Shown here: positions 15,990 through 37,109 of the stretch, in pieces
Position numbering within the stretch: position 1 is the stretch's first letter
How the letters are laid out: the number at the start of each line of letters is the position of its first letter
Origin: a bacterium BMS3Bbin14
GTDB lineage: Bacteria; Desulfobacterota; Desulfobulbia; Desulfobulbales; Desulfobulbaceae
NCBI GenBank assembly: GCA_002897615.1
Contig: BDTX01000011.1
Location: 1 to 64,000, forward strand
Direction: 5' to 3'
DNA length: 64,000 bases
Position numbers and translations under genes: made by a program
The notes under the pieces: generated by a model
Databases searched by the model: none
Seen by the model: the letters and a program-made list of their open reading frames with translations, nothing else
Told to the model about the DNA's origin: nothing

Positions 15990-17042
15990 ATGATTCGTGT
16001 CAGATTAGCTGAACAGTCAGATAGAGAGAAATGGGATGCGTATGTTAATTCGCATCCTGATGCCTCTCCCTATCATGTTTTTGCTTGGGGATTGGCCGTT
16101 AAACAGGCTTATGGTCATAAAGTTTATTATTTTTTAGCCGAAAATGACCAGGCCGTTGTCGGACTCCTGCCGGCAGTACAACTCAAGTTGCCTTTTTTTC
16201 TTAACGAATTGGTTGCCCTGCCTTATTGTGACGTTGGCGGATGCCTTTGTGACGATCAGGAAGCCTGTGAGGCAATCCTGGCCGAGTTCATGGCCTTGGG
16301 CCGCAAGATAAAAGCAAATAAAATCCAACTTCGGGGTCATATGGAATTTTCTCCGGCACAACAATTTAATTGTCTCAAGGAAAGACGTAATAAGGTGCGG
16401 ATGCTTCTTGATCTACCTGAATCATCGGAAGTTCTGATGAAAAGTTTTAAGTCGAAATTGCGCAGCCAAGTTAAGAAGGCAGAGAAAAATGATCTTGTTT
16501 TTCAATGGGGGGGAGATCCGGAGCTGGATAAATATTACGCCGTACTCAGTGAAAACATGCATGCGCTGGGCTCGCCTGTTCATTCCCGGGAGTTATTCAG
16601 AGCTGTTTTGCAACATTTCCAGGAAAAGGCTAAAATAGGTTTAGTCTATTTCCAGCAGAAGCCTGTTGCCGCCGGATTAATATTAATGAATGGCAAGATG
16701 GTGTCAGTTCCCTGGGCATCAACGTTGCGCACCTATAACCGGTTATCACCCAACATGTTGCTCTATTGGAATTTTCTAAAATATTCAGCTGATAACGGCT
16801 ATAATCTTTTTGATTTCGGCAGGTCGTCAAAAGGAGAAGGAACATATAAATTTAAGGCCCAGTGGGGGGCACAATCGATTCCGCTTGATTGGTATTCCTT
16901 GCAGTTGTGCGATCGGCCGCCACAGAATAACAATCAAGCCGGGATGACGGGACGTGATTTTTTTGCCGGCATATGGCAGAAAATTCCTTTGCAGCTGGCT
17001 AACTACCTTGGCCCACGGTTAAGAAGATATATCAGCCTTTAG
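15990..17042 (+). CDS. FemAB-family protein, XrtA/PEP-CTERM system-associated
   Basis: GNAT-fold transferase of the FemAB/BioF2-like group, 350 aa. It has the HPDASPYHVFAWGLAVKQAYGHK opening, a catalytic-domain stretch KSFKSKLRSQVKKAEKND (around 155-172) and a second GNAT half with LLYWNFLKYSADNGYNLFDFGRSSKGEGTYKFKAQWGA, the hallmark of this family. Family members use aminoacyl-tRNA or related donors, but the donor and acceptor here are unknown. It starts 5 bp after the deacetylase stop, so it is co-transcribed. It probably decorates the polysaccharide or a lipid-linked intermediate. Confidence 0.9.
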   Translation: MIRVRLAEQSDREKWDAYVNSHPDASPYHVFAWGLAVKQAYGHKVYYFLAENDQAVVGLLPAVQLKLPFFLNELVALPYCDVGGCLCDDQEACEAILAEFMALGRKIKANKIQLRGHMEFSPAQQFNCLKERRNKVRMLLDLPESSEVLMKSFKSKLRSQVKKAEKNDLVFQWGGDPELDKYYAVLSENMHALGSPVHSRELFRAVLQHFQEKAKIGLVYFQQKPVAAGLILMNGKMVSVPWASTLRTYNRLSPNMLLYWNFLKYSADNGYNLFDFGRSSKGEGTYKFKAQWGAQSIPLDWYSLQLCDRPPQNNNQAGMTGRDFFAGIWQKIPLQLANYLGPRLRRYISL

Positions 17043-17400: not shown

Positions 17401-17583
17401 ATGAAACTTGAAACCAAAATATTGCAGAATCAAACGAGCGCAGCCGGTAATTCGTGTCCGTCCGGAAGCCGTTTTTTCAAAGCTCTCGCAGGTTCGCTGT
17501 CTGCTGGATTTCTCGGTGTCTGCGCTTACCTGGAGTCTCGCGAACTCGCTTACCTCGTTCTGCTCCAAATTGATCGCCGTTGA
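17401..17583 (+). CDS. Possible 60-aa small protein
   Basis: A short frame with an unusually good ribosome site (AGGAGG at 17386-17391, 9 bp before ATG), ending 7 bp before the aminotransferase start. The product has a moderately hydrophobic second half (FKALAGSLSAGFLGVCAYLE). Against it: no recognised relative, and two stretches inside (CTCTCGCAGGTTCGCTGTCTGC and a weaker one) resemble the extra segment of family A copies 1 and 5, so it may be repeat-derived. It could be a leader peptide. The rest of the gap 17294-17590 shows nothing else. Confidence 0.25.
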   Translation: MKLETKILQNQTSAAGNSCPSGSRFFKALAGSLSAGFLGVCAYLESRELAYLVLLQIDRR

Positions 17584-17590
17584 TTCATCC

Positions 17591-18817
17591 ATGCGAATTT
17601 GCCGCACCCTGCCACCAGCAGCCGCACCCATCCCCCTGCACGAAGTATTAAAGGGGTTTTCTGCAGTTTTTGCCCATAACGAAAACGGATACGAGCAATT
17701 CCAGGCAGAACTTCAAAGCTACTTCGGTCGGAATTATTGCTTTCTCGTCTCATCGGGCAGAGCTGGCCTGGCCTTGATTTTGCAGGCGCTGAAACAGCTG
17801 TACCCTGGAAGAACCGAAGTTCTGATCCCGGCTTTCACCTGCTTTTCCGTCCCGGCAGCAATTAGAAAAGCCGGTTTGGCGATTCGATTATGTGATGTTG
17901 ATCAACAGACTCTGGATTTCAGCCATAATGAACTCAAGAAAATTATGGCGTCGAATAAAGGAAATAATCTGCTCTGCGTGCTGGCAACCCATTTGTTTGG
18001 TTATCCTGCAGATATTGCATCGTTGCGAGAGATCATCGGTGATGAAATTCCGATTGTTGAAGATGCCGCCCAGGCCTTGGGAGGCGAAAATGCCGGGGGG
18101 AAACTGGGTACCCTGGCCGATGTCGGTTTTTTCAGCTTGGGCCGCGGTAAGGCCTTGTCAACGGTTGAAGGTGGTGTGATCCTGACCAACCGCAGAGATA
18201 TGGGGATGGCATTGGCGTCCCTGGTTGCAAGACAACCCGGCTACGGGATGGCTGCAAATGTGAAGCTGGCAATAAAAGCACTGTTGATAACCATACTGCA
18301 ACAGCCGTTTTTGTTCCGGCTTCCTTTGTCGCTGCCTTTTTTGCAATTGGGAGAGACACTCTTTGAGCATGACTTCCCAATATTGAAAATGTCACCCGTC
18401 CAGGCAGCACTAAGCAGAAACTGGCGGGGAAGGCTCCGCAAGCATCAAAACGCCAGAAAAAAAAATACCAAATATTGGGCAGGTAAGCTACAATTAAGTT
18501 GTGGATCATGGTGCCGTACAGAGCAGGGGACTTGTGGCAACCTGATCAGATTCCCGGTATTAGCTGCAAATGGTGAGACAAGAGAAGCGATAGTCCGGGA
18601 AAGTAGACGAAAAGGATTGGGAATTATGCCTTCATACCCCACACCTATTAATGAAATCGCAGAGCTTGCTGCGAATTTTGCAGGGCAGGGCTATCCAAAC
18701 GCCGGTGAAATATGTAAAAAATTATTTACACTGCCCCTGCATGACTATGTAACCAGTATGGATAACGAGAGAATCTGCCGGCTGCTTGCCAGGCACGGCG
18801 TAATAAAAGGTTCGTAA
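17591..18817 (+). CDS. DegT/DnrJ/EryC1/StrS-family aminotransferase
   Basis: PLP-dependent sugar aminotransferase fold, about 408 aa. The conserved segments are LVSSGRAGLALILQAL (cofactor phosphate site), EVLIPAFTCFSVPAAIRKAG, and IPIVEDAAQALG with the PLP-ring Asp/Gln. The lysine position of the family falls in SLGRGKALSTVEGG, where Lys is in GRGK. The group normally aminates keto-sugars, consistent with supplying an amino sugar. The start ATG 17591 gives MRICRTLPPAAAPI, matching how XrtA-locus members begin; the frame stays open upstream to 17408 but without family similarity. It is 3 bp from the exosortase gene. Confidence 0.87.
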   Translation: MRICRTLPPAAAPIPLHEVLKGFSAVFAHNENGYEQFQAELQSYFGRNYCFLVSSGRAGLALILQALKQLYPGRTEVLIPAFTCFSVPAAIRKAGLAIRLCDVDQQTLDFSHNELKKIMASNKGNNLLCVLATHLFGYPADIASLREIIGDEIPIVEDAAQALGGENAGGKLGTLADVGFFSLGRGKALSTVEGGVILTNRRDMGMALASLVARQPGYGMAANVKLAIKALLITILQQPFLFRLPLSLPFLQLGETLFEHDFPILKMSPVQAALSRNWRGRLRKHQNARKKNTKYWAGKLQLSCGSWCRTEQGTCGNLIRFPVLAANGETREAIVRESRRKGLGIMPSYPTPINEIAELAANFAGQGYPNAGEICKKLFTLPLHDYVTSMDNERICRLLARHGVIKGS

Positions 18818-18820
18818 AAG

Positions 18821-19657
18821 ATGACAAGCAACAAGCTCGTAAATGTGTTAGGTGTCGGAGCCTTGGCGCTTATTATAGCTTTTTGCTATTCAGCGGTTTT
18901 TCAGTGGATGTATGGGCGCTATATGAATGCGGATTCCTACTATTCGCATGGTTTCCTGGTGCCTTTTGTCACTTTGTTTTTGATCTGGCTGAAAAGAGAC
19001 CAGCTGCTTAATCAAACACAACAAGGGAGCAGGGCCGGTTTGGTCCTGATTGTTGCCGCACTCTTGTTGCACATTCTCGGTACACTTCTTTATATATTCG
19101 CAGTATCATCCTTCTCTCTTTTTTTTCTGATAATAGGATTGACTTTATACCTTTGCGGCAATGAAATTACTCGAACTATTCGTTTCCCTCTCTTGTTTCT
19201 GATTTTCATGTTTCCTCTGCCCGAGGCCATTCTCGGTATTGTTTCCTTTCCTCTCAAAATCTTTGCAGCCAAGGCGGGAGTATGGCTCGTCGGTCTGCTG
19301 GGGATTCCGATTCATGGAGAGGGGTTCAATATTTTTATTCCTGCGGGAGAACTCCTGGTGGGCAATCCATGCAGCGGCCTCCGCTCCCTCATTGCGTTTC
19401 TGGCGCTGGGTGCGGTTTTCGCCTATTTGTCAAATCTTACGCTTGTGAGGAAATACATACTGTTTTTTATTGCAATTCCTATTGCCATTCTATCCAATAT
19501 CATTAGGGTGCCCATTCTTATTCTGGTGTCATATTATTGGGGGCTTAAGGCCGCCGCGCCGGATACCTTGGTACATACCGCCTCTGGTTTGCTGGTTTTT
19601 GTTCTCGGATTTTTCTTGTTGATGATGTCTGCGAAGGTTCTGGAATGGCGAGCCTGA
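18821..19657 (+). CDS. xrtA: Exosortase (XrtA-like), stand-alone
   Basis: Integral membrane cysteine transpeptidase that recognises PEP-CTERM sorting tails. 278 aa with about eight hydrophobic segments. The catalytic triad of the family is visible: Cys184 in GNPCSGLRSL, Arg229 in SNIIRVP and His252 in LVHTASG. An early motif SYYSHGFLVPFV is also diagnostic. In many organisms exosortase A is fused to EpsI; here EpsI is a separate, overlapping downstream gene. No protein with a PEP-CTERM tail is encoded in the window, so its substrates lie elsewhere. Confidence 0.93.
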   Translation: MTSNKLVNVLGVGALALIIAFCYSAVFQWMYGRYMNADSYYSHGFLVPFVTLFLIWLKRDQLLNQTQQGSRAGLVLIVAALLLHILGTLLYIFAVSSFSLFFLIIGLTLYLCGNEITRTIRFPLLFLIFMFPLPEAILGIVSFPLKIFAAKAGVWLVGLLGIPIHGEGFNIFIPAGELLVGNPCSGLRSLIAFLALGAVFAYLSNLTLVRKYILFFIAIPIAILSNIIRVPILILVSYYWGLKAAAPDTLVHTASGLLVFVLGFFLLMMSAKVLEWRA

Positions 19658-20422: not shown

Positions 20423-21259
20423 ATGCGAATATTCACCATAAGCGCCACCATTGTCATTGCTGTTGCAATGTCACTTGCGGTTTGCAATGGAAATAAAATG
20501 AATGAAGAAAAATTTGCAGTTAAATCACTGTCGGATGTAACACCTGCTGCCTGGGTCAAATTGGCGCACCAGACAATATATTTTGGCCATCAGTCGGTAG
20601 GTAAAAATATTATTGCAGGTATTCGGGATATCATGAAAGAACATCCGGAAATTAAATTACACATAGTAGAAACAACTGACATTGCCGCTCTCCGGTCTCC
20701 CGTATTCGCTAATTCCCCTGTTGGGAAAAATGGGGCACCTTTGTCAAAGATCAATGGATTTAAAGAGCTGATGGATAAAAGGATGGGTAATCTCGTGAAT
20801 ATCGCTTTTTTTAAATTCTGTTTTGACGATATCAGAGAACGGACCAATGTGAAAATGCTGTTCAAGAATTACAGCCAAACCATGGATGATTTGACCAGGA
20901 AATATCCGAAAACACAATTTGTTTATATAACGGTGCCGCTTCTTAAAAGACAAAAGAGAACCTTGGCTTCCCGGATAAAAGGATTTTTCGGGGGAAAAGG
21001 CTATTTTGCCGATGAAAACAATATCGCGAGATATAAGCTCAATAAGTTAATCCGGGAAAAGTATAAAGGAAGCGGTTTGTTATTTGATTTGGCTCGGTTT
21101 GAGTCGACAAAACCGGATGGTACTCGCGAGAGCTTTGAGAAGAAGGGAAAGATTTATTACGCCTTGGCACCAGCATATACCGGCGATGGTGGCCACCTTA
21201 ACGTAGTGGGACGTAAATATATCGCGCAGCAATTGCTCATATTTTTAGCAAATATGTAG
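20423..21259 (+). CDS. SGNH/GDSL hydrolase-like secreted protein in XrtA locus
   Basis: 278 aa. A short N-terminal hydrophobic segment (FTISATIVIAVAMSLAVC) looks like a signal sequence, possibly a lipoprotein because a Cys follows it. The block IYFGHQSVGKNI near residue 50 is in the position of the GDSL serine block. A C-terminal GDGGHLNVVGRKYIA supplies the D-x-x-H typical of SGNH esterases. That suggests an O-acyl esterase or acyltransferase acting on periplasmic glycan, but the nucleophile block is non-canonical. It starts with GGAGT a few bases upstream of ATG. It lies between epsI and the acyl carrier protein. Confidence 0.7.
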   Translation: MRIFTISATIVIAVAMSLAVCNGNKMNEEKFAVKSLSDVTPAAWVKLAHQTIYFGHQSVGKNIIAGIRDIMKEHPEIKLHIVETTDIAALRSPVFANSPVGKNGAPLSKINGFKELMDKRMGNLVNIAFFKFCFDDIRERTNVKMLFKNYSQTMDDLTRKYPKTQFVYITVPLLKRQKRTLASRIKGFFGGKGYFADENNIARYKLNKLIREKYKGSGLLFDLARFESTKPDGTRESFEKKGKIYYALAPAYTGDGGHLNVVGRKYIAQQLLIFLANM

Positions 21260-21295: not shown

Positions 21296-21547
21296 ATGGA
21301 TAATTCACTTATAAGCGACATAAAGAATATCATCACAGATACTGTCGGCAGGAATGTAATTCCTGACCCATTACCGGATGACTACCAACTGGTCGGCAAC
21401 TTGCTTGATTCTTTAGCGGTTACTAATTTGATCATTGCCCTGGAAGAATATTTTGGCTTTATTTTTAATGATGACGAACTCTCTGCCGAGGCCTTTGAGA
21501 CTGTTTTGAGTCTTGCTGAATTAGTGTCCGGCAAAATTAAAGCTTAA
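21296..21547 (+). CDS. Acyl carrier protein
   Basis: 83 aa carrier domain. The phosphopantetheine attachment Ser is Ser39 in NLLDSLAVTNLI, and the surrounding helices match the carrier fold. It is acidic, as expected. AAGGAAAAAAC lies upstream of the ATG. It is not near fatty-acid genes. It sits one base from a hydrolase gene and 1.7 kb from an acyl-CoA ligase, so the likely job is to carry an acyl or aminoacyl unit made by this locus. 4'-phosphopantetheinyl transferase would be needed from elsewhere. Confidence 0.93.
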   Translation: MDNSLISDIKNIITDTVGRNVIPDPLPDDYQLVGNLLDSLAVTNLIIALEEYFGFIFNDDELSAEAFETVLSLAELVSGKIKA

Positions 21548-21548
21548 T

Positions 21549-22385
21549 ATGGTGAGAATAGACGAGAAAGTTTTTTTCTTCTCCGGATCCGGCAACCGAA
21601 ATCTTTTTGCTTTTTTGCATCATGCCGAGTCGGTGAAGAATTCGATCGGGGTTGTATACTGTCACCCCTTTGCCGAAGAAAAAAATATGTCTCATTCGAT
21701 TATTGTCAAAGCTGCAAGGATGATAGCCGAAGAAGGATTTCCAGTTTTCAGGTTCGATTTGAGCGGTTGCGGTGACAGTGAAGGAGATTTAGACCATTCC
21801 ACTGTTGAAGACTGGCGGCAAGACCTGGATAAGGCAATTGAAATTTTTCACCAAGAGACAGGTGTCTCGCGATATTTGCTGTGGGGGCTTAGGCTGGGGG
21901 CCGGGCTGGCATTGATGCGGGAACAATGTCCTAAGGATGATGAACCGGCAGGTCTTATCTTGTGGCAACCTGTTCTCGACTTTTCCCTGCATATTGAGCA
22001 ATTTCTGCGCCGGTCAATAAGTTCCCAAATTTTAAAAAAAAGCAATGGTCTGGTATCGGGGATGAATGCCGAGACCGAGATGAGAATTTATGATACCGCA
22101 CATGTTATAGGGTATCCAATTACGAAACATCTCTATAATAGTTTTAATGAGATAGGCAATCAGCCCTTAACAGTTACTCCCTCTTATCCTACTCTTATCG
22201 TGTCTGTTTCTTTGCGGGATCAACCGGCCGTTGCCCTCAAGCAGCATGCAGATCGTCTTCGGCGATCTGGTACGCCGGTAACCTTGTGCCACGTTTCAGC
22301 AGAACCATTCTGGGACCGTTACTGGCAGTGGGAATGTAAAAATGCCGCGGCAGTTACATTGCAGTGGATAAAGAAGTTTTGCTAA
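21549..22385 (+). CDS. Alpha/beta hydrolase, exosortase A system-associated (hydrolase 2 type)
   Basis: 278 aa alpha/beta-hydrolase fold of the TIGR03101-like group: VVYCHPFAEEKNMSHSIIVKAARMIAEEG, then FRFDLSGCGDSEGD. The nucleophile elbow reads WGLRLGA, with Arg115 where a Ser or Cys is expected, so hydrolytic activity is doubtful unless another residue acts. The C-terminal His could lie in CHVSAEPFWD. It starts 1 bp after the ACP stop and its TAA overlaps the next ATG, so it is tightly coupled. The biological function of the family is not established. Confidence 0.88.
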   Translation: MVRIDEKVFFFSGSGNRNLFAFLHHAESVKNSIGVVYCHPFAEEKNMSHSIIVKAARMIAEEGFPVFRFDLSGCGDSEGDLDHSTVEDWRQDLDKAIEIFHQETGVSRYLLWGLRLGAGLALMREQCPKDDEPAGLILWQPVLDFSLHIEQFLRRSISSQILKKSNGLVSGMNAETEMRIYDTAHVIGYPITKHLYNSFNEIGNQPLTVTPSYPTLIVSVSLRDQPAVALKQHADRLRRSGTPVTLCHVSAEPFWDRYWQWECKNAAAVTLQWIKKFC

Positions 22386-23281
22386 TGGTTGGCACGGTTA
22401 TGGAAGAACCTGTTCAATTTATCTGTAACAACAAAAGACTGTATGGAATTTTGCATATTCCTGATAGTGTTGTTACACCTGCAACCATTATGATTATTCT
22501 TACCGGCGGTCCCCAGGTCAGGACCGGGGGGCACCGATTGTATGTGCAGTTGAGCAGATTCCTCTGTGGGCATAATGTTTCCACGTTTCGTTTTGATTAC
22601 GAGGGTTCTGGTGACAGCGAAGGGGATTTTGTCGGTTTTCAACATGCGGGTCCGTCATTAGCGGCGGCGATTCATTTTTTACATAATAGATTTAAAAATG
22701 AATTAAATGTTATTATCTGGTCATTATGTGATGGTGCGGCGGCGGCGGCATTGTATGCGGCAACAAATCAAGAGTACATAAGGGGACTTGTTTTGTGTAA
22801 TCCCTTTGTCATAACAGAGCAGGGAGTGGCTCGTTCGAATATAAAGCATTATTATGGCAAACGTTTTTTTGACAAAGAGTTTTTGCGTAATCTGATTTGC
22901 TTTAGACTTAATTTCAAACGGACGATAAAGTCATTGTTGCAAAATATTATAGATGCTCAATTTTTTACAATGAACAAAACTATAGTAACAACTTCTAATA
23001 AAACTTTTTCACCGGCTTTGGTTATCGACAGTCTCCAAAAATTAAAAAAACCAATCAGGATTATTCTTAGCACTGATGATATTGTTGCCGCTAACTTTCA
23101 GGATGAATTGAAAAAAAATAAAGCAATAAAAAATGATTACAAAAAAAATAAAATTATAAACTCCTTTATCAAAGGGGCAGATCACACATTTGTGGATCCT
23201 TCTGCCAGGGAAAAGCTGTTTTCATTAACGTTGCAAGCCGTCAATGAAATTGAATCAATAGGTTTTGCCAATGTATCCTGA
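22385..23281 (+). CDS. Alpha/beta hydrolase, exosortase A system-associated (hydrolase 1 type)
   Basis: 298 aa, TIGR03100-like: IMIILTGGPQVRTGGHRLYVQLSRFL, then FRFDYEGSGDSEGDFVGF. The elbow is IIWSLCDGA, with Cys115 in the nucleophile position as in dienelactone-hydrolase-like enzymes. The catalytic His may be in GADHTFVD. The ATG is taken at 22385 because it overlaps the preceding stop (TAATG); an upstream ATG at 22364 lies inside the previous gene. The last third is very A-rich (runs of A8), unlike the neighbours. Function unknown; it always travels with the ligase/decarboxylase pair in these loci. Confidence 0.88.
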   Translation: MVGTVMEEPVQFICNNKRLYGILHIPDSVVTPATIMIILTGGPQVRTGGHRLYVQLSRFLCGHNVSTFRFDYEGSGDSEGDFVGFQHAGPSLAAAIHFLHNRFKNELNVIIWSLCDGAAAAALYAATNQEYIRGLVLCNPFVITEQGVARSNIKHYYGKRFFDKEFLRNLICFRLNFKRTIKSLLQNIIDAQFFTMNKTIVTTSNKTFSPALVIDSLQKLKKPIRIILSTDDIVAANFQDELKKNKAIKNDYKKNKIINSFIKGADHTFVDPSAREKLFSLTLQAVNEIESIGFANVS

Positions 23282-24911
23282 AAAGATTATTCGTACCGTT
23301 GGCGATTTAATTATCCATGCGGCAGGTAAAAGTCCTGATAAGCCAGCAGTATTGTATAAAAATGATGCATTGACTTATGCCCAGGTTTATGAACAAAGTC
23401 TCAGGCTGGCCCGGAGATTGATACGATTGGGAGTCGGCAAAGGCGACAGGGTTTGCTTTTATCTTGAAAAACGTTTGGAAAAAGTCGTTTCGATCTTTGG
23501 TATATCTATCGCCGGTGGAATCTTTGTGCCAATCAATCGACTTGCCTGGGCCGGCCAGGCGCTCCATATTATCAAAAATAGTGAAGCAACTGTACTCATA
23601 ACCACATTCTCCCGCCTGGCATCCCTGAAAGAATCTTTGTCAGGCCTGCTGGTCGTAATTGTGATTGATCGGCCTGACGACGATACCCTGGCCATTTCTT
23701 GTCCGGTAATGAGCTGGGAAGAAGTGATGGATGGCAATGCTTGCGCCCAGCCGTCATCTGGCGTCATTGCCAATGATGTCGCTGCAATTCTTTATACCTC
23801 GGGATCGACGGGCCTGCCCAAGGGGGTCGTGCTCAACCATTTAAATATTATTGCAGGAGCATATGCAGTTTCTGAATATTTGAAAATAAGTACGGAAGAT
23901 CGGATCCTGAGTATTCTTGGTTTTGGCTTTGATTACGGTCTTAACCAGCTTATCTCTTCTTTTCTGCAAGGCGCACAACTTGTTTTGTATGATTATCTTT
24001 TTCCCAAAGATATCTTAACGACCGTTGAAAAATATAACATTACCGGTTTGGCTGCTGTGGCGACAACATGGATCCAGCTTTTGCAGATACCATGGGGCAA
24101 CGCTATGAATTCATTACGTTACCTTACCAATTCCGGAGCTTCAATTCCTGTCCCTTGTGTCAAGGAATTAAGGACGCGTATTCCGGCGGCGGAACTCTAT
24201 CTTATGTACGGTTTAACAGAGGCCTTTCGTTCTACCTATCTGCCGCCGGAAATGGTTGATCAACGTCCATCCTCCATTGGCAAGGCGATTCCCGGTGAAC
24301 AGATCTTGGTATTAGATGAAAATAACCAGCCGGTGAAACCGGGAGAGACCGGAGAACTCGTCCACCGGGGAGTCCTTGTTGCGCAGGGGTATTGGGGGGA
24401 ACCGGAATTAACCGCAGAGCGGTTCCGAAAGAATCCCCTGCAGCTAGAAGGGATGCCAATTCGAGAAACGGTGGTTTATTCAGGAGATTATGTCCGGATG
24501 GATGGTGACGGCTATCTCTACTTTGAAGGGCGCAGAGATGAGATGATCAAAAGCGCCGGGAATCGAATCAGTCCTACTGAAATTGAAGAAATTTTATATA
24601 ATTCCCATCTCGTATCGGCAGCGGTGGCGCTGGGAATTCCGCATGAAATTTACGGTCAGGTTATCCTTGCGGTTGTCTCTTTCTCTCATGGGGAAAATGG
24701 GAAGAGTCACACGAAAGATGAGCTTTTAGCTTACTGCCAGCAAAATATGCCACCTCCCATGGTTCCCCGTGAAATTGAGATATGGGACAAACTCCCCATA
24801 AATAGCAATGGCAAGCATGACCGGGCAAAGATAAAAAAAGAGATTTATGAAAAGAAGGGTTTGTTTTCTCGTGCCCCTGACTCTCCGCATTGCCAGGGAT
24901 TGCATCCATGA
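23265..24911 (+). CDS. Acyl-CoA ligase (AMP-forming), exosortase A system-associated
   Basis: 548 aa ANL-superfamily adenylating enzyme of the TIGR03098 type. It activates a carboxylic acid as acyl-AMP and passes it to CoA or the ACP. The motifs are the P-loop AILYTSGSTGLPKGVV (about 175-190), LMYGLTEAFRSTYLPPE (A5), VYSGDYVRMDGDGYLYFEGRRDEMIKSAGNRISPTEIEE (A7-A8) and the C-terminal Lys in INSNGKHDRAKI (A10). It overlaps hydrolase 1 by 17 bp and the decarboxylase by 4 bp (ATGA). The acid substrate is not known. Confidence 0.92.
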   Translation: MPMYPEKIIRTVGDLIIHAAGKSPDKPAVLYKNDALTYAQVYEQSLRLARRLIRLGVGKGDRVCFYLEKRLEKVVSIFGISIAGGIFVPINRLAWAGQALHIIKNSEATVLITTFSRLASLKESLSGLLVVIVIDRPDDDTLAISCPVMSWEEVMDGNACAQPSSGVIANDVAAILYTSGSTGLPKGVVLNHLNIIAGAYAVSEYLKISTEDRILSILGFGFDYGLNQLISSFLQGAQLVLYDYLFPKDILTTVEKYNITGLAAVATTWIQLLQIPWGNAMNSLRYLTNSGASIPVPCVKELRTRIPAAELYLMYGLTEAFRSTYLPPEMVDQRPSSIGKAIPGEQILVLDENNQPVKPGETGELVHRGVLVAQGYWGEPELTAERFRKNPLQLEGMPIRETVVYSGDYVRMDGDGYLYFEGRRDEMIKSAGNRISPTEIEEILYNSHLVSAAVALGIPHEIYGQVILAVVSFSHGENGKSHTKDELLAYCQQNMPPPMVPREIEIWDKLPINSNGKHDRAKIKKEIYEKKGLFSRAPDSPHCQGLHP

Positions 24912-26137
24912 ATCATGCCCTCAAATCAGCCCTTGCCAATTTTACCAGGCAAGGAAGTGAGCTGGTAGTCGGCGGCAAGACTGTCTCCGCTCTCGCGGAG
25001 CAGTATGGGACACCTCTTTATATTTACGACAAACGGATCATTTTGCAGAAGTGTCAGGTCATTCGTAATGCCTTGCCGGACAATTTAAAAATTTACTATG
25101 CGCTGAAGGCCAACCCGAATCATGAAATTATTCAGTTGATGGCCGGGCTATACGATGGTTTTGATGTGGCCTCTGCCGGTGAAATCGAGCGGGTTATTCA
25201 GGCCGGGATTGCTCCGGACAGGATTAGTTTTGCCGGCCCCGGTAAGACCATTTCAGAGTTGCGATACGCGATAAATCAGCAAATCGGTGGTCTGAGTCTT
25301 GAGAGTGAGCAAGAGTTTGGGCATGTTAAAGCAATTTGCCGGCAGCTGGGGAAAACCGCTGATGTTTTTATTCGTGTGAATCCTGATTTTGGCCTTTCCC
25401 AATCCGGCATGAAGATGGGGGGGGGGCCAACGCAATTCGGTGTGGACAGCGAGCGTGTTCCGGACCTTCTCAAGGCCATACAGGATGCCCCGCTGCTCAA
25501 TTTTAAGGGCATTCATATTTTTAGCGGCAGTCAGAATCTTTCAGCAGATGAACTCCTTCGTCTGTTTGAAAATATTTTTGACTACGCAGTTTCTCTTATC
25601 GAGGTAACCGGCATTGCCATCGACAAATTGAATATGGGGGGGGGGTTCGGTATTCCTTATTTTGCTCACGAACAGGAATTGGATCTCTTGGCCGTTGGCC
25701 AAGGTTTAGAGCGGCTTTTCAGGCAATACCGGGCAAAATTGAAAAATACTTCATTCATTATCGAGCTTGGACGATTTTTAGTCGGAGAGAGTGGAGTTTA
25801 TCTTACAAGAGTTTTGTATAGAAAAATATCACAGGGGCAGGTGTTCCTGGTTACAGACGGAGGGATGCATCATCATCTGGCGGCCTCCGGTAATTTTGGT
25901 CAAAGTCTGGTGCGCCGTCCCATGCCTCTGACCGTGGCAAACAGGTTAGGGGGCCCGGTCGAAAAAGTGCATGTGGTCGGGCCGCTTTGCACCCCTCTTG
26001 ACAGTTTTGGCTTTGTCGACCTGCCTGAAGCGCAACAGGGGGATTTGATTGCTGTTTTGAATTCCGGCGCCTATGGATTTTCCGCAAGCCCGCAGCTATT
26101 TTTAAGCCATCCTGCGCCAAAAGAGATCATTGTTTAA
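24908..26137 (+). CDS. PLP-dependent decarboxylase, exosortase A system-associated (DAP/ornithine decarboxylase fold III); carries two G10 tracts
   Basis: 409 aa, TIGR03099 type. The barrel N-terminus has YALKANPN with the PLP lysine at residue 67, then VASAGEIERVIQAG, GGGFGIPYF (phosphate-binding GGG), ELGRFLVGESGVYLTRVLYRK and a C-terminal GPLCTPLDSFGF with the active-site Cys. The expected reaction is decarboxylation of a D- or meso-type amino acid, possibly while bound to the neighbouring ACP (inference). Two runs of ten G (25417-25426 and 25636-25645) encode MGGG both times and could slip during replication, switching the gene off. ATG 24908 is chosen for its 4-bp overlap with the ligase. 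Confidence 0.92.
   Translation: MNHALKSALANFTRQGSELVVGGKTVSALAEQYGTPLYIYDKRIILQKCQVIRNALPDNLKIYYALKANPNHEIIQLMAGLYDGFDVASAGEIERVIQAGIAPDRISFAGPGKTISELRYAINQQIGGLSLESEQEFGHVKAICRQLGKTADVFIRVNPDFGLSQSGMKMGGGPTQFGVDSERVPDLLKAIQDAPLLNFKGIHIFSGSQNLSADELLRLFENIFDYAVSLIEVTGIAIDKLNMGGGFGIPYFAHEQELDLLAVGQGLERLFRQYRAKLKNTSFIIELGRFLVGESGVYLTRVLYRKISQGQVFLVTDGGMHHHLAASGNFGQSLVRRPMPLTVANRLGGPVEKVHVVGPLCTPLDSFGFVDLPEAQQGDLIAVLNSGAYGFSASPQLFLSHPAPKEIIV
25417..25426 (+). repeat. Homopolymer G10 tract 1
   Basis: Ten consecutive G inside the decarboxylase gene (codons about 170-173, read M-G-G-G-P). It is in frame in this assembly. One base gained or lost would frameshift the gene. Confidence 0.9.
25636..25645 (+). 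repeat. Homopolymer G10 tract 2
   Basis: A second run of ten G 219 bp further on, at the conserved GGG phosphate-binding loop (codons about 243-246, read M-G-G-G-F). Elsewhere the longest G run I noticed in the window is seven. Confidence 0.9.
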
Positions 26138-26287: not shown

Positions 26288-27733
26288 GTGGATCATAGCA
26301 TCATGATAACATCAGAGCTGCTCACGAAGCAGGTGGATATTAACCGGATTATACCAGAGTGTATAGATCTTGCGAAGGCGAGTGAAGCATCTTTGCCTTT
26401 TCAATATATGCATATGCCGCTTGCCTGGTGGGATTCGTTTCATAATGGTACTGATTCTTTATTTGGGAAAAAACGGGGACAGAATTTTCTTGGCGCCCAA
26501 AGTCGACTCGAAGAGTTTTTTTTGCTGATAGCCAGGGACGGTGACTCTCTGTGCGGGGCGATCCCGCTCGTAAGGCATACGTTGAAAACGCCCAAGAGCC
26601 AAGGGGGACTATGTATAATTACTTTTGCGGGTGATTATATCTTGCTTCCCTTCCAGGATTTTGTGGTTGAACCATCAAGGCGTCAAGAGGTTATTTCATC
26701 ATTTCTGGAGCGAATAGCACAGTTGTTAAAAGCTGGATGCTCTTTTTTCTGGGCCGGACATTTACCCGAAGAGTCACCTAACCTCGCGGTACTCAGGGCG
26801 AGCTGTGCAGCTTTGCAAGGACACCATATAGCAAGCCTGGAGGCCATAAGTTATCAACGAGGCGGGGTTTGGCCCTGGACTATTGGCGGAATTTCGGCAA
26901 CGCTTAAAGAAATGTGCGAAATTTGTACGAAATTTGGGGTAACATTTAATGGACTGGAAGAATTGGCAATAAAGACTGCCGCTTGTACTCCTCAATCACT
27001 TTTGTTCCCCGGAACCAGGAACAATTTATTGCAGGAGCTGAATACCTTGATTGCCGGGATTGATCGCCATGAGTCTCTGGCCGATTTTGCGAAAAGGTTT
27101 AAGTCGTTCCTGAAAAATTCGCCAATACTTTATCCATATATTGAGTTGCCTCTAGACCGGGAAGAGTATCTTGGTTCTCTTAGTTATTCTACCCGCCGGT
27201 ATTTCAGGCGTTATCTGGGAAAATTCCTGGAGGCTGGCGGCAGTTTTGAAATAGTGCGGCCTGACGAAATTACCGCAGAGGATATTGAAGATTATATTCG
27301 GCTGCATCTTCTCCGGTGGGGTAATGGTTCCCATGCAATATGTGGCGAGTCGGCTGATTATCATCGGACAATTTCTGCAGCCATGGCACAACAGGGCATG
27401 TTCCTGTTGTTTTTTGCAAGATATCAGGGCAAGCGCATAGCTGTGCACTCCTGTTTTGATATCGGCTCTCGTCGTGAAGGCTATCTTACGGGACGGGACC
27501 CGGACTACACGAAATTACGCGCCGGCCGGCTTTTGTATATACAGACGATATTTGATGCCATTGATAAAGGTTTCAGCAGGTATGAGCTTGGGGTTATCGG
27601 CTTCGGCTACAAGATGAGTTTTGTTAAAAAAACTACGGTGGCCCACAATTTTTTCCTCTACCCGGCAGATCAAGAGCTTAATTTTGATCAATTTTTTTTA
27701 GGTTTCGAATGCATGGAGCCAATACGGGGGTAA
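26288..27733 (+). CDS. GNAT-fold acyltransferase (BioF2/CelD-like)
   Basis: 481 aa, or 476 from ATG 26303. The N-terminal half has AWWDSFHNG and LEEFFLLIARDGDSLCGAIPLV. The C-terminal half has LDREEYLGSLSYSTRRYFRRYLGKF, the characteristic R-R-x-x-K patch, then LFFARYQGKRIAVHSCFDIGSRREGYLTGRDPDYTKLRAGRLLYIQTI and YELGVIGFGYKMSF, the standard CelD/BioF2 GNAT signature. It would transfer an acyl or aminoacyl group to a cell-envelope glycan or its precursor; the donor is unknown. It follows a 150-bp gap with an inverted GTAAGAG/CTCTTAC pair and no clear promoter. Confidence 0.8.
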   Translation: MDHSIMITSELLTKQVDINRIIPECIDLAKASEASLPFQYMHMPLAWWDSFHNGTDSLFGKKRGQNFLGAQSRLEEFFLLIARDGDSLCGAIPLVRHTLKTPKSQGGLCIITFAGDYILLPFQDFVVEPSRRQEVISSFLERIAQLLKAGCSFFWAGHLPEESPNLAVLRASCAALQGHHIASLEAISYQRGGVWPWTIGGISATLKEMCEICTKFGVTFNGLEELAIKTAACTPQSLLFPGTRNNLLQELNTLIAGIDRHESLADFAKRFKSFLKNSPILYPYIELPLDREEYLGSLSYSTRRYFRRYLGKFLEAGGSFEIVRPDEITAEDIEDYIRLHLLRWGNGSHAICGESADYHRTISAAMAQQGMFLLFFARYQGKRIAVHSCFDIGSRREGYLTGRDPDYTKLRAGRLLYIQTIFDAIDKGFSRYELGVIGFGYKMSFVKKTTVAHNFFLYPADQELNFDQFFLGFECMEPIRG

Positions 27734-28348: not shown

Positions 28349-28357
28349 TCTTTGCTC

Positions 28358-29380
28358 ATGTCTAAATTTAAGATTATTAAGAGAAACCCACATCAATTCA
28401 AAAAACAGATTTTAGAGTTCTGGGAAAAATATTTGCCCGGAACCCCTGCAAATCGTCTTGATTGGATGGGCAAGAATCCTGCCGGGGCAGCAATCTGGTT
28501 GTTTGCCATTGAACAGAAAACAGGAAAGCTCGCAGGGATAATTTCTCTTTTGCCCAAAAAATTATTTTTAGATAACAAAATAATAAGAGCCGGTATTCTC
28601 GGAGACTTTATGTTGCATTCGGAGTATCGAGCATTTGGCCCTGCCTTGGATTTGCTTAAAGCGGCCATTGCACTTCAGGGGCAAGGAAAATTTGATTTTC
28701 TTTATACCATACCGAACTTGAAATCAAAAAAAATTGCAGAAAGAGCAGGATTTAAGTCTGTGGGTCAACTATATACTCTTATGAGGCCTCAGGAGACTGT
28801 TTTCTGGTTGGAAAAATATATGTCTCCTGTTGCCGCCAAGGTGTTGCAATGGCCGGCCATGTTAGCGGTGAAGATATTATCTCGAGAAACTTATGTTTAT
28901 TGTCGTGGTGACTTTGTCGAGTTGGACTGGAGTGATTCTTCATTCGATGTTTTTGCAGAGCAATGGAAAAAAGATCAATCAGGAATGCTTACCGGTGACC
29001 ATCAATTATCATATCTTAAATGGAGATATTTGGAAAATCCTGAATCTAATTTCCGCATAATTACTTTTAGAAAACATGAAACCGGAGATTTGCTCGGCTT
29101 CTTTGTCGTTTCAATAAAGAATAATCGTTTGGAAATTTACGACCTTGTTGCTGCTGAAAGCAGGTATATTTATACTATGATAAAAAAAATTACTGATATT
29201 TCGAAAAGTGAAAATTGCCGCGGCGTTTATGGGGTGATGTTTGACAAAAATCCATTAATGACATTCGCCAGAAAATGTTGCTTTTTTGATATAAAAGATG
29301 ACGCAGAAATTTTTACTTCCCCTGGAAGCTCTGAGGACATTAGCCAATGGTATTTTACTTCTGCAGATCGCAATATATGA
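28358..29380 (+). CDS. GNAT-family N-acetyltransferase-like protein
   Basis: 340 aa from ATG 28358 (a TTG at 28352 is the alternative). It has the GNAT pieces WLFAIEQKTGKLAGIISLLPKK, GILGDFMLHSEYRAFGPALDLLKAAIALQGQGKFDFLYTIPNLKSKKIAERAGF (acetyl-CoA loop-like) and a second half with HQLSYLKWRYLENPESNFRIITFR. The last is a common signature of polysaccharide-locus GNAT proteins. The substrate cannot be named. It begins 9 bp after the hexapeptide acyltransferase. Confidence 0.72.
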   Translation: MSKFKIIKRNPHQFKKQILEFWEKYLPGTPANRLDWMGKNPAGAAIWLFAIEQKTGKLAGIISLLPKKLFLDNKIIRAGILGDFMLHSEYRAFGPALDLLKAAIALQGQGKFDFLYTIPNLKSKKIAERAGFKSVGQLYTLMRPQETVFWLEKYMSPVAAKVLQWPAMLAVKILSRETYVYCRGDFVELDWSDSSFDVFAEQWKKDQSGMLTGDHQLSYLKWRYLENPESNFRIITFRKHETGDLLGFFVVSIKNNRLEIYDLVAAESRYIYTMIKKITDISKSENCRGVYGVMFDKNPLMTFARKCCFFDIKDDAEIFTSPGSSEDISQWYFTSADRNI

Positions 29381-34596: not shown

Positions 34597-35393
34597 GGCT
34601 CCGGCTCCCCTGGGAATAGTGTTATTTTAAAAAGAGAAAATCTGGTTTTGGTGGGCAGGCGAAGAAACTGTTGACGGATCAAATTTGTTTGCGGGGTGCA
34701 TGGCGATGAATACGTTTTTTCGTACCTTCCCGTGGAAGTTGGTCTCATCGGTTACTCTTTTTATTTTGGTGGTTACGAAAAAGGAATTCGGGCAGGCGGG
34801 AATCAGGTGCCAGGTTCAAAACCTCTTGAAAGTTTGGCCGCAAATGGTTTGGGCCGGGGGGCTCTTTTTATTATTGCAAGGTAATCAATCACAACGCGAT
34901 CTGCTTCGTTAATAGCAGGTTCGCGTACCGATTATAGCTCACCTGCCGATGCCTTGCATCTCCGGCACCTTGTAACCGTTTACGTTGCGAGTTCAGTTTT
35001 ATAAGAATTGGGGCCGGGTTATTGTGATTCCCATGAGTTACCTGCAGGGTTGGCCTAAGCGGACAAGGCGACAATTTCGTCCAGTTGCCAACCTCTACCT
35101 GCATAATATCGCCAATATCCTTCATTCTTTGCTTGTTGTTTCCAATATGATTTAAGTTTCTTTTTTTGCCGGTACGCCTTAGCTTTGAGTGGGAATTGGA
35201 AAAATATTTGTGTTGAGGAAATGAAAAAGATAAAAATAAATAAACTGCCGAGTTTTAAATAGGACCCGACTTTGATTCTTGGCATTTAAATTGCTTTATT
35301 CGAATTGATTGCCGCGCCGCTGTTTACGTTCGCTGATTATCGGTACAGTGCATTAATTGTGTGAAAAGTTCTAGGATAAGGGAGATCAACACA
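34597..35393. other. 800-bp region without a supported gene
   Basis: Between the O-antigen ligase-like and beta-helix genes. A plus frame (34696-34884) and a minus frame (35055-35285, with one hydrophobic stretch) are open, but they have no ribosome sites or recognised families. I see no tRNA, no family A or B repeat and no clear terminator. It may be remnant DNA of an older gene. The GGGAG ribosome site of the beta-helix gene is at its end. Confidence 0.5.
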
Positions 35394-37109
35394 ATGAAAA
35401 AAGTTAGTTTTTGTATTGTCGTTTTGTTTTCTGTTCTCTTTTTTTCATCGTATCTCTATGCGGCTAATATTTATGTGGACAAGACCCTGAGCGGTAACAT
35501 TACGAATGGCTCATATTCTACGTCAAATCGGGATAACAGTGGCTCGGATGGCGATGCTTACACCACTGTCCAGGCAGCAATAAATGCAATGAAACCCGGG
35601 GATCATATCCTGATGAGGGGCGGTACTTATCGGGAGGGTCATATAGACATTCCTTTGTCCAAAAACGGTACAAGCTGGAAAGAGGGGGACTACAACAAGC
35701 TTTCGTCGTATCCCGGTGAGTGGGCTATCCTTGATGCGCAATACACTGCACGTGACAAAGAGCCTGTCTATGGAGCTACTTTGGGGCATGCTGTGTACGA
35801 TGATTCAAATGCTTTTGATTTGAAATATTGGTGGTTTGAACGATTTGAAATAACCGGTGGCGGCAATTCTGTTGGCGGGGCTGGTTTTTTTGGCGGTGGC
35901 GGCCCTTTTAAGTTTAGGTACATGTACATTCATGATAATTATAGTCCAAGCGGCGGCCAGAATCCGGCGGGAATCAAAGGTCATCATTGGCATGATTCAT
36001 TAGTTGAATACTGTTATTTTAACAATAATGGAATGCAAACAGGAACAAATAATAATGCGGCCAATATCGCTATCTATAGTGATTACAATTGGTCTTATAC
36101 CGCTAAGGATGGTTACGATAACAACGACAAGAGTCATAGGCCCATTGCCAGAAATATTATACGATACAATTATTTTAAAAATGGTGTGGTAGGTTTTAAG
36201 CATAAAGGCGGTCAGATTTTTAGCGGTAGAAATCCCTCTGGCGGGCATGGCTGGGATGACACCTATGATACTTATGGAGATAAAATACATCATAACATTT
36301 TTGATGGAATGCGGGCGTATGCGATAGGGGCAAACCAGGACTTTGCACAAGTGTATAATAATATTATCATTAATTGCAACAAGGGTATTATGATACAGTA
36401 TGAGCCTGCCTATCCTTTTTATAAAGTTGTTACATATAATAACACTATTTTCAAAACTAATGCTGAGCCCTTGGTCAGGTATGTCTCTGATACTTTTTCT
36501 TTTGAGCCTCGTGACTACTACGGCTGGGATTTTAACAATATTTTTGATCAGGGTAGTTCTTACTGGAGTTATTATAATGCCCGCAGCTTAAATGTAGCAC
36601 TTGTTGGCAGTAGTGGTCCAATGTATAATTTAAGTAATTATACCGCCTCAAACAATTATTTTTACCGTCCTCAAAGCTCAGAGGTAATTGTGTTAGACAA
36701 CAAGACCTTCTCAGCCAGTGCATTTGAGGACCAGACGTTAACTCATAGTCCAAGAATTGCTTATCAGAATGCCTATGTTTCGAGTGATCCGTTGGTTGAA
36801 GGAAAAACAGGTGCCGCTCGACTCATTACCAGGGGGGCTCATAGCCTGGGAAGCGGCGTAACCATAAGCAATGGTGGAATTGGGATATTGCATCCATACC
36901 TTGCTGGAGTTAAAATCCCCTCTTATGTCGGGGCGACAAACCCTGACGACCATGCCTGGGTTGCCGGTGTTTTGGGCCTGGCAAATGTACAAAACCTCAT
37001 GCATGGAGGGGAAGGTGCCCCTGATTGGGTCGAAGGGAGCAGTAAAGCTATCGGTGCTGCAAATCCTACCCCAAAACCTGTAGGTTTTAGTTTTAAGCAG
37101 AATCCGTGA
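35394..37109 (+). CDS. Secreted right-handed beta-helix protein, 3' end remodelled by a repeat
   Basis: 571 aa from ATG 35394 (GGGAG about 9 bp upstream). The Sec signal peptide is MKKVSFCIVVLFSVLFFSSYLYA, cut before ANIYVD. The mature chain opens like DUF1565/pectate-lyase-fold proteins (IYVDKTLSGN, DAYTTVQAAINAMKPGDHILMRGGTYREG) and continues through beta-helix coils with HHNIFDGMRAYAIG and NNIIINCNKGIMI. It could be a polysaccharide lyase or epimerase acting on the polymer made here. The final codons and stop (AATCCGTGA) come from a family A repeat, so the natural C-terminus may be lost. No PEP-CTERM tail is present. Confidence 0.82.
   Translation: MKKVSFCIVVLFSVLFFSSYLYAANIYVDKTLSGNITNGSYSTSNRDNSGSDGDAYTTVQAAINAMKPGDHILMRGGTYREGHIDIPLSKNGTSWKEGDYNKLSSYPGEWAILDAQYTARDKEPVYGATLGHAVYDDSNAFDLKYWWFERFEITGGGNSVGGAGFFGGGGPFKFRYMYIHDNYSPSGGQNPAGIKGHHWHDSLVEYCYFNNNGMQTGTNNNAANIAIYSDYNWSYTAKDGYDNNDKSHRPIARNIIRYNYFKNGVVGFKHKGGQIFSGRNPSGGHGWDDTYDTYGDKIHHNIFDGMRAYAIGANQDFAQVYNNIIINCNKGIMIQYEPAYPFYKVVTYNNTIFKTNAEPLVRYVSDTFSFEPRDYYGWDFNNIFDQGSSYWSYYNARSLNVALVGSSGPMYNLSNYTASNNYFYRPQSSEVIVLDNKTFSASAFEDQTLTHSPRIAYQNAYVSSDPLVEGKTGAARLITRGAHSLGSGVTISNGGIGILHPYLAGVKIPSYVGATNPDDHAWVAGVLGLANVQNLMHGGEGAPDWVEGSSKAIGAANPTPKPVGFSFKQNP

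Follow-up and report, generated by a model that had tools for sequence, protein, structure and literature searches.

A predicted carrier-protein amino-acid decarboxylation module in an exosortase-associated polysaccharide island of a Desulfobulbaceae bacterium

A stretch of 64,000 nucleotides from the bacterium BMS3Bbin14 (Desulfobulbaceae; assembly GCA_002897615.1, contig BDTX01000011.1), hereafter called the window, carries a row of five genes inside a polysaccharide and exosortase island. We interpret them, with a probability of about 0.62, as a carrier-protein amino-acid decarboxylation module whose product is attached by N-acylation to an amino sugar in the exosortase-linked exopolysaccharide. 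The ligase would activate an acidic amino acid at its side-chain carboxyl group (most likely L-aspartate, next L-glutamate or methylaspartate), with its amino group held by Asp221 and its alpha-carboxylate by Arg320, and would load it on the phosphopantetheine at Ser39 of the acyl carrier protein (ACP). A pyridoxal phosphate (PLP) decarboxylase would then act on the carrier-bound residue and remove its free alpha-carboxylate, so that an omega-aminoacyl-ACP is formed, either beta-alanyl-ACP or gamma-aminobutyryl-ACP (GABA-ACP). Hydrolase 1, with its Cys triad, and its probably catalytically dead paralogue hydrolase 2 may handle the thioester, by transfer or by proofreading. Finally, a TIGR03006 deacetylase would expose the sugar amine and an enzyme of GNAT or FemAB fold would carry out the last step, the N-acylation of the amino sugar. 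It is the exact amino acid, the transferring enzyme and the acceptor that we infer in this scheme. The five genes are the following:

21296-21547, plus strand: ACP of 83 amino acids; phosphopantetheine Ser39, codon 21410-21412; weak but clear match to the PP-binding domain PF00550 (25.8 bits)
21549-22385, plus strand: hydrolase 2, TIGR03101-like; Arg115 (codon 21891-21893) at the nucleophile elbow; probable pseudo-hydrolase
22385-23281, plus strand: hydrolase 1, TIGR03100; Cys113-Asp230-His265 triad; predicted acyl-transferring or thioester-cleaving enzyme
23271-24911, plus strand: ANL-family ligase, TIGR03098; predicted amino-dicarboxylate:ACP ligase
24908-26137, plus strand: fold-III PLP decarboxylase, TIGR03099; predicted aminoacyl-ACP decarboxylase

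An earlier sequence-only reading of this DNA had described an overlapping or abutting set at 21296-26137, and all five open reading frames (ORFs) were indeed found there, co-directional and translationally coupled. The ACP and hydrolase 2 genes are separated by a 1 bp gap, the ATG of hydrolase 1 at 22385 overlaps the end of hydrolase 2 (TAATG), the ligase ATG at 23271 creates an 11 bp overlap with hydrolase 1, and the decarboxylase ATG at 24908 overlaps the end of the ligase (ATGA). Their proposed membership in exosortase A-associated families holds for the ligase (TIGR03098, 616.8 bits versus a cut-off of 592), the decarboxylase (TIGR03099, 510 versus 478) and hydrolase 1 (TIGR03100, 209.9 versus 168), all above the NCBIfam cut-offs, but not fully for hydrolase 2, whose best family is TIGR03101, with fitting gene position and key residues, but which scores below its cut-off (134.4 versus 202.75 bits). 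NCBI assigns no function to these four 'exosortase A system-associated' families. We compared 80 homologous loci from Deltaproteobacteria, KSB1, Alpha-, Beta- and Gammaproteobacteria, Acidobacteria, Planctomycetota and a myxobacterium. The order ACP-hydrolase 2-hydrolase 1 is kept across them and the ligase gene lies next to the decarboxylase gene in almost every locus; since both arrangements recur in independent phyla, the cluster is not a product of chance. Another exosortase-system gene was found nearby in 42 of these loci by a loose criterion.

The nature of the loaded acid was predicted from the ligase pocket. Matches of the whole protein in the PDB were mainly amino-acid-activating domains. 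When the pocket region was used as query, the top PDB match was VinN (3WV4/3WVN), ahead of all nonribosomal peptide synthetase domains, and the alignment ran without gaps through the YGxTE loop and at the diagnostic short beta13-beta14 loop. Counting along this alignment (chain numbering minus 16), Asp221 (codon 23931-23933) is equivalent to VinN D230, Tyr222 to F231, Ser288 to S299, Phe319 to K330 and Arg320 (codon 24228-24230) to R331. The window ligase thus has the VinN-type Asp, the bulky residue after it, the Ser and the short loop with its Arg. From the way the pocket has been described, Arg331 of VinN probably binds the alpha-carboxylate. In VinN, D230 coordinates the beta-amino group of the substrate, the K330/R331 loop lacks one residue relative to alpha-amino-acid domains and admits the C1-C2 bond of 3-methylaspartate, and F231 and S299 are bulkier residues on the opposite side (reviewed in PMC11253843).

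These pocket residues are widely conserved. Among 80 aligned ligases (the window protein and 79 matches), Asp221 and Arg320 each occur in 78, and at least one exception (L061:15142) is a second, paralogous AMP-binding gene. Phe replaces VinN Lys330 in the window ligase and in 78 of the 80, leaving the Lys-Arg pair of VinN incomplete, so that we consider the enzyme to act like VinN but do not class it as a VinN orthologue. Position 222 divides the family into two subtypes, with Tyr in 49 sequences and Ala in 28. The bulky residue at this position in the window ligase, as in VinN, favours aspartate (leading to beta-alanyl-ACP) over glutamate (leading to GABA-ACP).

Membership in the ANL family and strong matches to generic fatty-acyl ligase models would also suit a different function, the one implied by the name 'acyl-CoA ligase': lipids or sugars would be acylated with a fatty, hydroxy or other acyl group that the ligase places on the ACP, and a free amino acid would be the substrate of an independently acting decarboxylase. 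We regard this as improbable. The Asp and Arg pair is absent from 12 of 13 other ANL paralogues of this genome and of one Massilia genome, in whose fatty-acyl members Asp221 is replaced by Cys, Ile or Val and Arg320 by Pro, a comparison that disfavours fatty-acyl loading; the predominance of amino-acid-activating domains among the structural relatives, with VinN best for the pocket, and the nearly constant adjacency of the ligase and decarboxylase genes point the same way. Among these paralogues only L091 has the pair; it is another VinN-like ligase encoded in this genome, and its pocket contains Lys-Arg. The loading of an adenylated acid on Ser39, already put forward from the sequence alone, is thereby backed by the VinN-type pocket and the whole-genome co-occurrence described below, which would make it specific for an amino dicarboxylate.

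Two observations concern other ligases of this type. The second VinN-like ligase with a Lys-Arg pocket in the same genome (L104:5262-6833; L104 = G000:C21:202000-218000) neighbours an ACP, an asparagine-synthase-like amidotransferase and a WbuX-type N-acetyl sugar amidotransferase, with no adjoining decarboxylase. The Ala222-subtype ligase-decarboxylase pairs in loci L060, L061, L069 and L088 have a different setting, adjoining acyl-CoA dehydrogenase-like genes.

The decarboxylase has the PLP-binding Lys67 (codon 25106-25108) and a CTPLD motif starting at Cys361 (25988). Its closest PDB relatives are two BtrK entries (296 and 293 bits, top E-value 2.9e-87), followed by diaminopimelate decarboxylases (177 bits) and by 6KNH (168 bits), which we take to be SbnH, a decarboxylase. 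It is 39.7% identical to BtrK versus 31.4% to the LysA of its own genome. Like BtrK, it has GPLCTP and GGMHHH motifs where that LysA has GPICESGD and AGMNDL, and GPLCTPLD occurs in 74 of 89 aligned decarboxylases. Family score, PLP lysine, the CTPxD motif replacing CESGD of LysA, and BtrK as the closest relative therefore all agree with a BtrK-like TIGR03099 enzyme. A housekeeping role was excluded: neither lysine nor beta-alanine supply explains this gene, because the genome encodes its own LysA (C11:94868-96046, on the same contig) and PanD. Decarboxylation on the carrier, another element of the sequence-only reading, is likewise supported by the BtrK-type relationship and by genome co-occurrence, and the sequence comparisons make amino-dicarboxylate loading followed by on-carrier decarboxylation a well-supported prediction.

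Both steps have known counterparts. BtrK decarboxylates glutamyl-S-BtrI, and VinO decarboxylates 3-methylaspartyl-S-VinL, but only after thioester formation (PMC7857480, PMC11284099). The window module resembles VinN-VinL-VinO of vicenistatin and FlvN of fluvirucin biosynthesis in its stand-alone ligase with Asp230, aromatic 231, Ser299 and Arg331 positions, its free-standing ACP and its PLP decarboxylase working after loading. Unlike it, those modules feed polyketide synthases, of which there is none here, and use a second aminoacylation and VinK, whereas the window genes belong to an exopolysaccharide/exosortase island, include two that encode alpha/beta-hydrolase-fold proteins and specify a ligase with Phe319 where VinN has Lys330. 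The BtrI-BtrJ-BtrK system of the butirosin side chain includes the closest solved relative of the window decarboxylase (40% identical, sharing the CTP and GGMHHH motifs), which acts on glutamyl-ACP. In contrast, BtrJ is an ATP-grasp ligase and the window ligase an ANL enzyme, and the butirosin product goes to an aminoglycoside.

The carrier serine, Ser39, is conserved in the 41 aligned ACPs. The 'two odd hydrolases' recognized from the sequence both have an alpha/beta-hydrolase fold but turn out to be a Cys-triad enzyme and a probable catalytically dead partner. In hydrolase 1 (residues counted from 22391), Cys113 (codon 22727-22729) is invariant in the alignment and Asp230 (23078-23080) and His265 (23183-23185) occur in at least 90% of the sequences. 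An AlphaFold2 model (predicted local distance difference test score, pLDDT, 83.8) places Cys113 at the nucleophile elbow, Asp230 after beta7 and His265 after beta8, the canonical positions, and a fold search retrieved the S33 lipase/esterase fold. The model of hydrolase 2 (pLDDT 89) has the same general architecture, with the elbow between strand 108-114 and helix 116-124, and it also matched lipase/esterase folds. However, the elbow residue is Arg115, invariant in 17-19 aligned homologues, which have no Ser, Cys or Asp nucleophile and no conserved catalytic His at the required position, Trp255 lying near it. From the alignment and the model, hydrolase 2 is therefore probably not a hydrolase but a non-catalytic partner.

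Genome co-occurrence was analysed in 150 Burkholderiales genomes, 40 with and 110 without XrtA. Hydrolase 1 was present in 22 of the 40 XrtA genomes versus none of the 110 others (Fisher p 9e-16, this and the following p values ignoring shared ancestry). It never occurred without hydrolase 2 (p 2e-25), both hydrolases being confined to XrtA genomes, and it accompanied the decarboxylase in 20 genomes (p 6e-16). The decarboxylase itself occurred in 24 of 40 XrtA genomes versus 5 of 110 others (p 1e-12), and FemAB in 38 of 40 versus 3 of 110. From these frequencies in XrtA genomes, FemAB belongs to the core of the exosortase system, to which the module is accessory. The family relationships, the pocket residues, the triad, the dead site and the co-occurrence are all read from sequence. 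One hydrolase 1 gene has an in-frame TAG (G466:C19:40952-41755) in a genome with XrtA and no decarboxylase match, which might reflect decay without its pathway.

Known carrier-bound decarboxylations serve antibiotics, and the product could instead become a free lipid or small soluble metabolite, as in natural-product pathways, after the same loading and decarboxylation. Some ligase-decarboxylase-ACP loci without an exosortase, accompanied by acyl-CoA dehydrogenase, MatE or KAS III-like genes, would agree with such a fate. With the two hydrolases restricted to XrtA genomes in the Burkholderiales sample and the window module placed within a polysaccharide/exosortase operon, we think it unlikely here and prefer transfer to the exopolysaccharide, for which the following genes provide candidates or context:

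26288-27733, plus strand: GNAT-fold (Acetyltransf_6) protein; PF13480, 65 bits; candidate transferase for the ACP-bound group
28352-29380, plus strand: GNAT-like protein of 342 amino acids (context); homologues flank the ACP in the Acidobacterial locus L072
15157-15984, plus strand: polysaccharide deacetylase, TIGR03006, 407 bits, above cut-off; probable supporting part
15990-17042, plus strand: FemAB-family protein, VimA relative; TIGR03019, 286.9 bits, above cut-off; alternative transferase
18821-19657, plus strand: exosortase, XrtA-like (context)

GNAT-fold genes were found in 32 of the 80 loci. In 25 the distance to the decarboxylase is at most 4 kb, and in 6 the GNAT gene is the immediate neighbour of the ACP gene; the cases next to the ACP come from several phyla. 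A homologue of the window protein at 26288-27733 also adjoins the decarboxylase in loci L009, L010 and L011, and next to the GNAT gene there is often one for a DegT aminotransferase. In the Acidobacterial locus (L072:4753-7113), two GNAT342-like genes directly flank the ACP, upstream of the ligase and decarboxylase. The window protein (GNAT481) was ruled out as an orthologue of a conserved double-GNAT neighbour, scoring 13.5 bits against that model.

A precedent for the last step comes from Porphyromonas gingivalis and Tannerella forsythia. Using mass spectrometry and mutants, Veith et al. proposed that the deacetylase VimE and VimA, to which the FemAB family TIGR03019 is related, place Ser or Gly on the sugar joined to type IX secretion cargo, and speculated that exosortase bacteria act similarly (PMC7468200). 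The island has TIGR03006 and TIGR03019 genes that may form a VimE/VimA-like pair, in which a deacetylase and a TIGR03019-related transferase would together attach an amino acid to the amine of a sugar. The systems differ in that type IX secretion uses Ser or Gly, with no ACP/decarboxylase module reported, and the window has a dedicated carrier pathway; another amine-bearing group for this type of linking sugar could come from the module. Transfer to the polymer by the GNAT or FemAB proteins, as suggested from the sequence alone, remains a prediction, strengthened by this precedent and by the recurrent GNAT neighbours; transfer to a protein, its other suggestion, has no direct support. Inspection by eye of the deacetylase and FemAB sequences, with no predictor, revealed no obvious secretion signal, which would fit a lipid-linked sugar being modified in the cytosol.

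The transferring step may be assigned differently. Hydrolases 1 and 2 could together form a Cys-dependent acyltransferase with a dead partner subunit, the GNAT genes encoding unrelated polymer acetyltransferases. The intact Cys triad and the constant pairing of hydrolase 2 with hydrolase 1, beside the ACP, lend this variant some plausibility. Against it, hydrolase 1 is missing from 10 of 36 decarboxylase-bearing genomes and GNAT genes recur next to the ACP across phyla; we judge it doubtful, if the most credible of the alternatives.

Several observations weigh against our interpretation of the module. The GNAT neighbours belong to more than one orthologous family (gnat481, gnat342 and a double-GNAT), and 48 of the 80 loci, some of them on short contigs, yielded no GNAT gene. 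Phe319 in place of VinN Lys330 means that one Arg alone would hold the carboxylate, and Ala at position 222 in 28 of 80 ligases suggests that substrates may vary between subfamilies. FemAB does not need the module, being present in 38 XrtA genomes compared with 24 for the decarboxylase. Moreover, 5 of the 29 Burkholderiales genomes with the decarboxylase lack XrtA, and some ligase-decarboxylase pairs adjoin acyl-CoA dehydrogenase genes instead.

A bolder possibility is that the module builds the exosortase attachment point, the beta-alanyl or GABA amine on the deacetylated sugar accepting the cut C-terminus of PEP-CTERM proteins, in parallel with the seryl and glycyl linking sugars of type IX secretion. 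This analogy-based idea has a slim chance of being correct, and the 16 of 40 XrtA genomes without the decarboxylase speak against this amine as a general exosortase acceptor.

In a limited literature collection, where absence proves little, we found no paper joining exosortase A with an ACP and a decarboxylase; the NCBI family phrase was not used there, and exosortase was not linked to the pyridoxal decarboxylase name. A search for polymers carrying beta-alanine or GABA gave nothing usable and led to the type IX linking-sugar papers. The family membership of these genes is ordinary, but their specific and testable functional assignment is apparently unreported in the literature searched. It would give four families widespread in environmental bacteria, so far annotated just by their association with the exosortase A system, a concrete testable chemistry (amino-dicarboxylate loading, on-carrier decarboxylation and sugar N-acylation) that predicts amine-bearing polymer substituents. 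It also corrects the misleading name of hydrolase 2, and the question of which acceptor exosortase attaches its proteins to would become accessible to experiment.

The surroundings had been called an XrtA island. Exosortase-system genes do surround the module, but the exosortase at 18821-19657 scores below the XrtA cut-off (TIGR03109, 179.6 versus 208 bits) and above that of the generic model (TIGR02602, 174 versus 105.55 bits), so that 'XrtA-like island' is more accurate; the remainder of the island is of XrtA type. In addition to the TIGR03006 and TIGR03019 genes, the operon holds a DegT aminotransferase, EpsI, glycosyltransferases and a flippase. Two ORFs, at 20423-21259 (278 amino acids, between EpsI and the ACP) and at 35361-37109 (582 amino acids, inside the island), matched no Pfam or NCBIfam family at the thresholds used. 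The whole genome yielded a single PEP-CTERM match (G000:C21:106821-106895, 27.8 bits), and the exosortase may thus serve a single protein. The DegT aminotransferase ORF (17408-18817) has ~90 extra N-terminal residues ahead of its Pfam match, and its true start is probably downstream of 17408.

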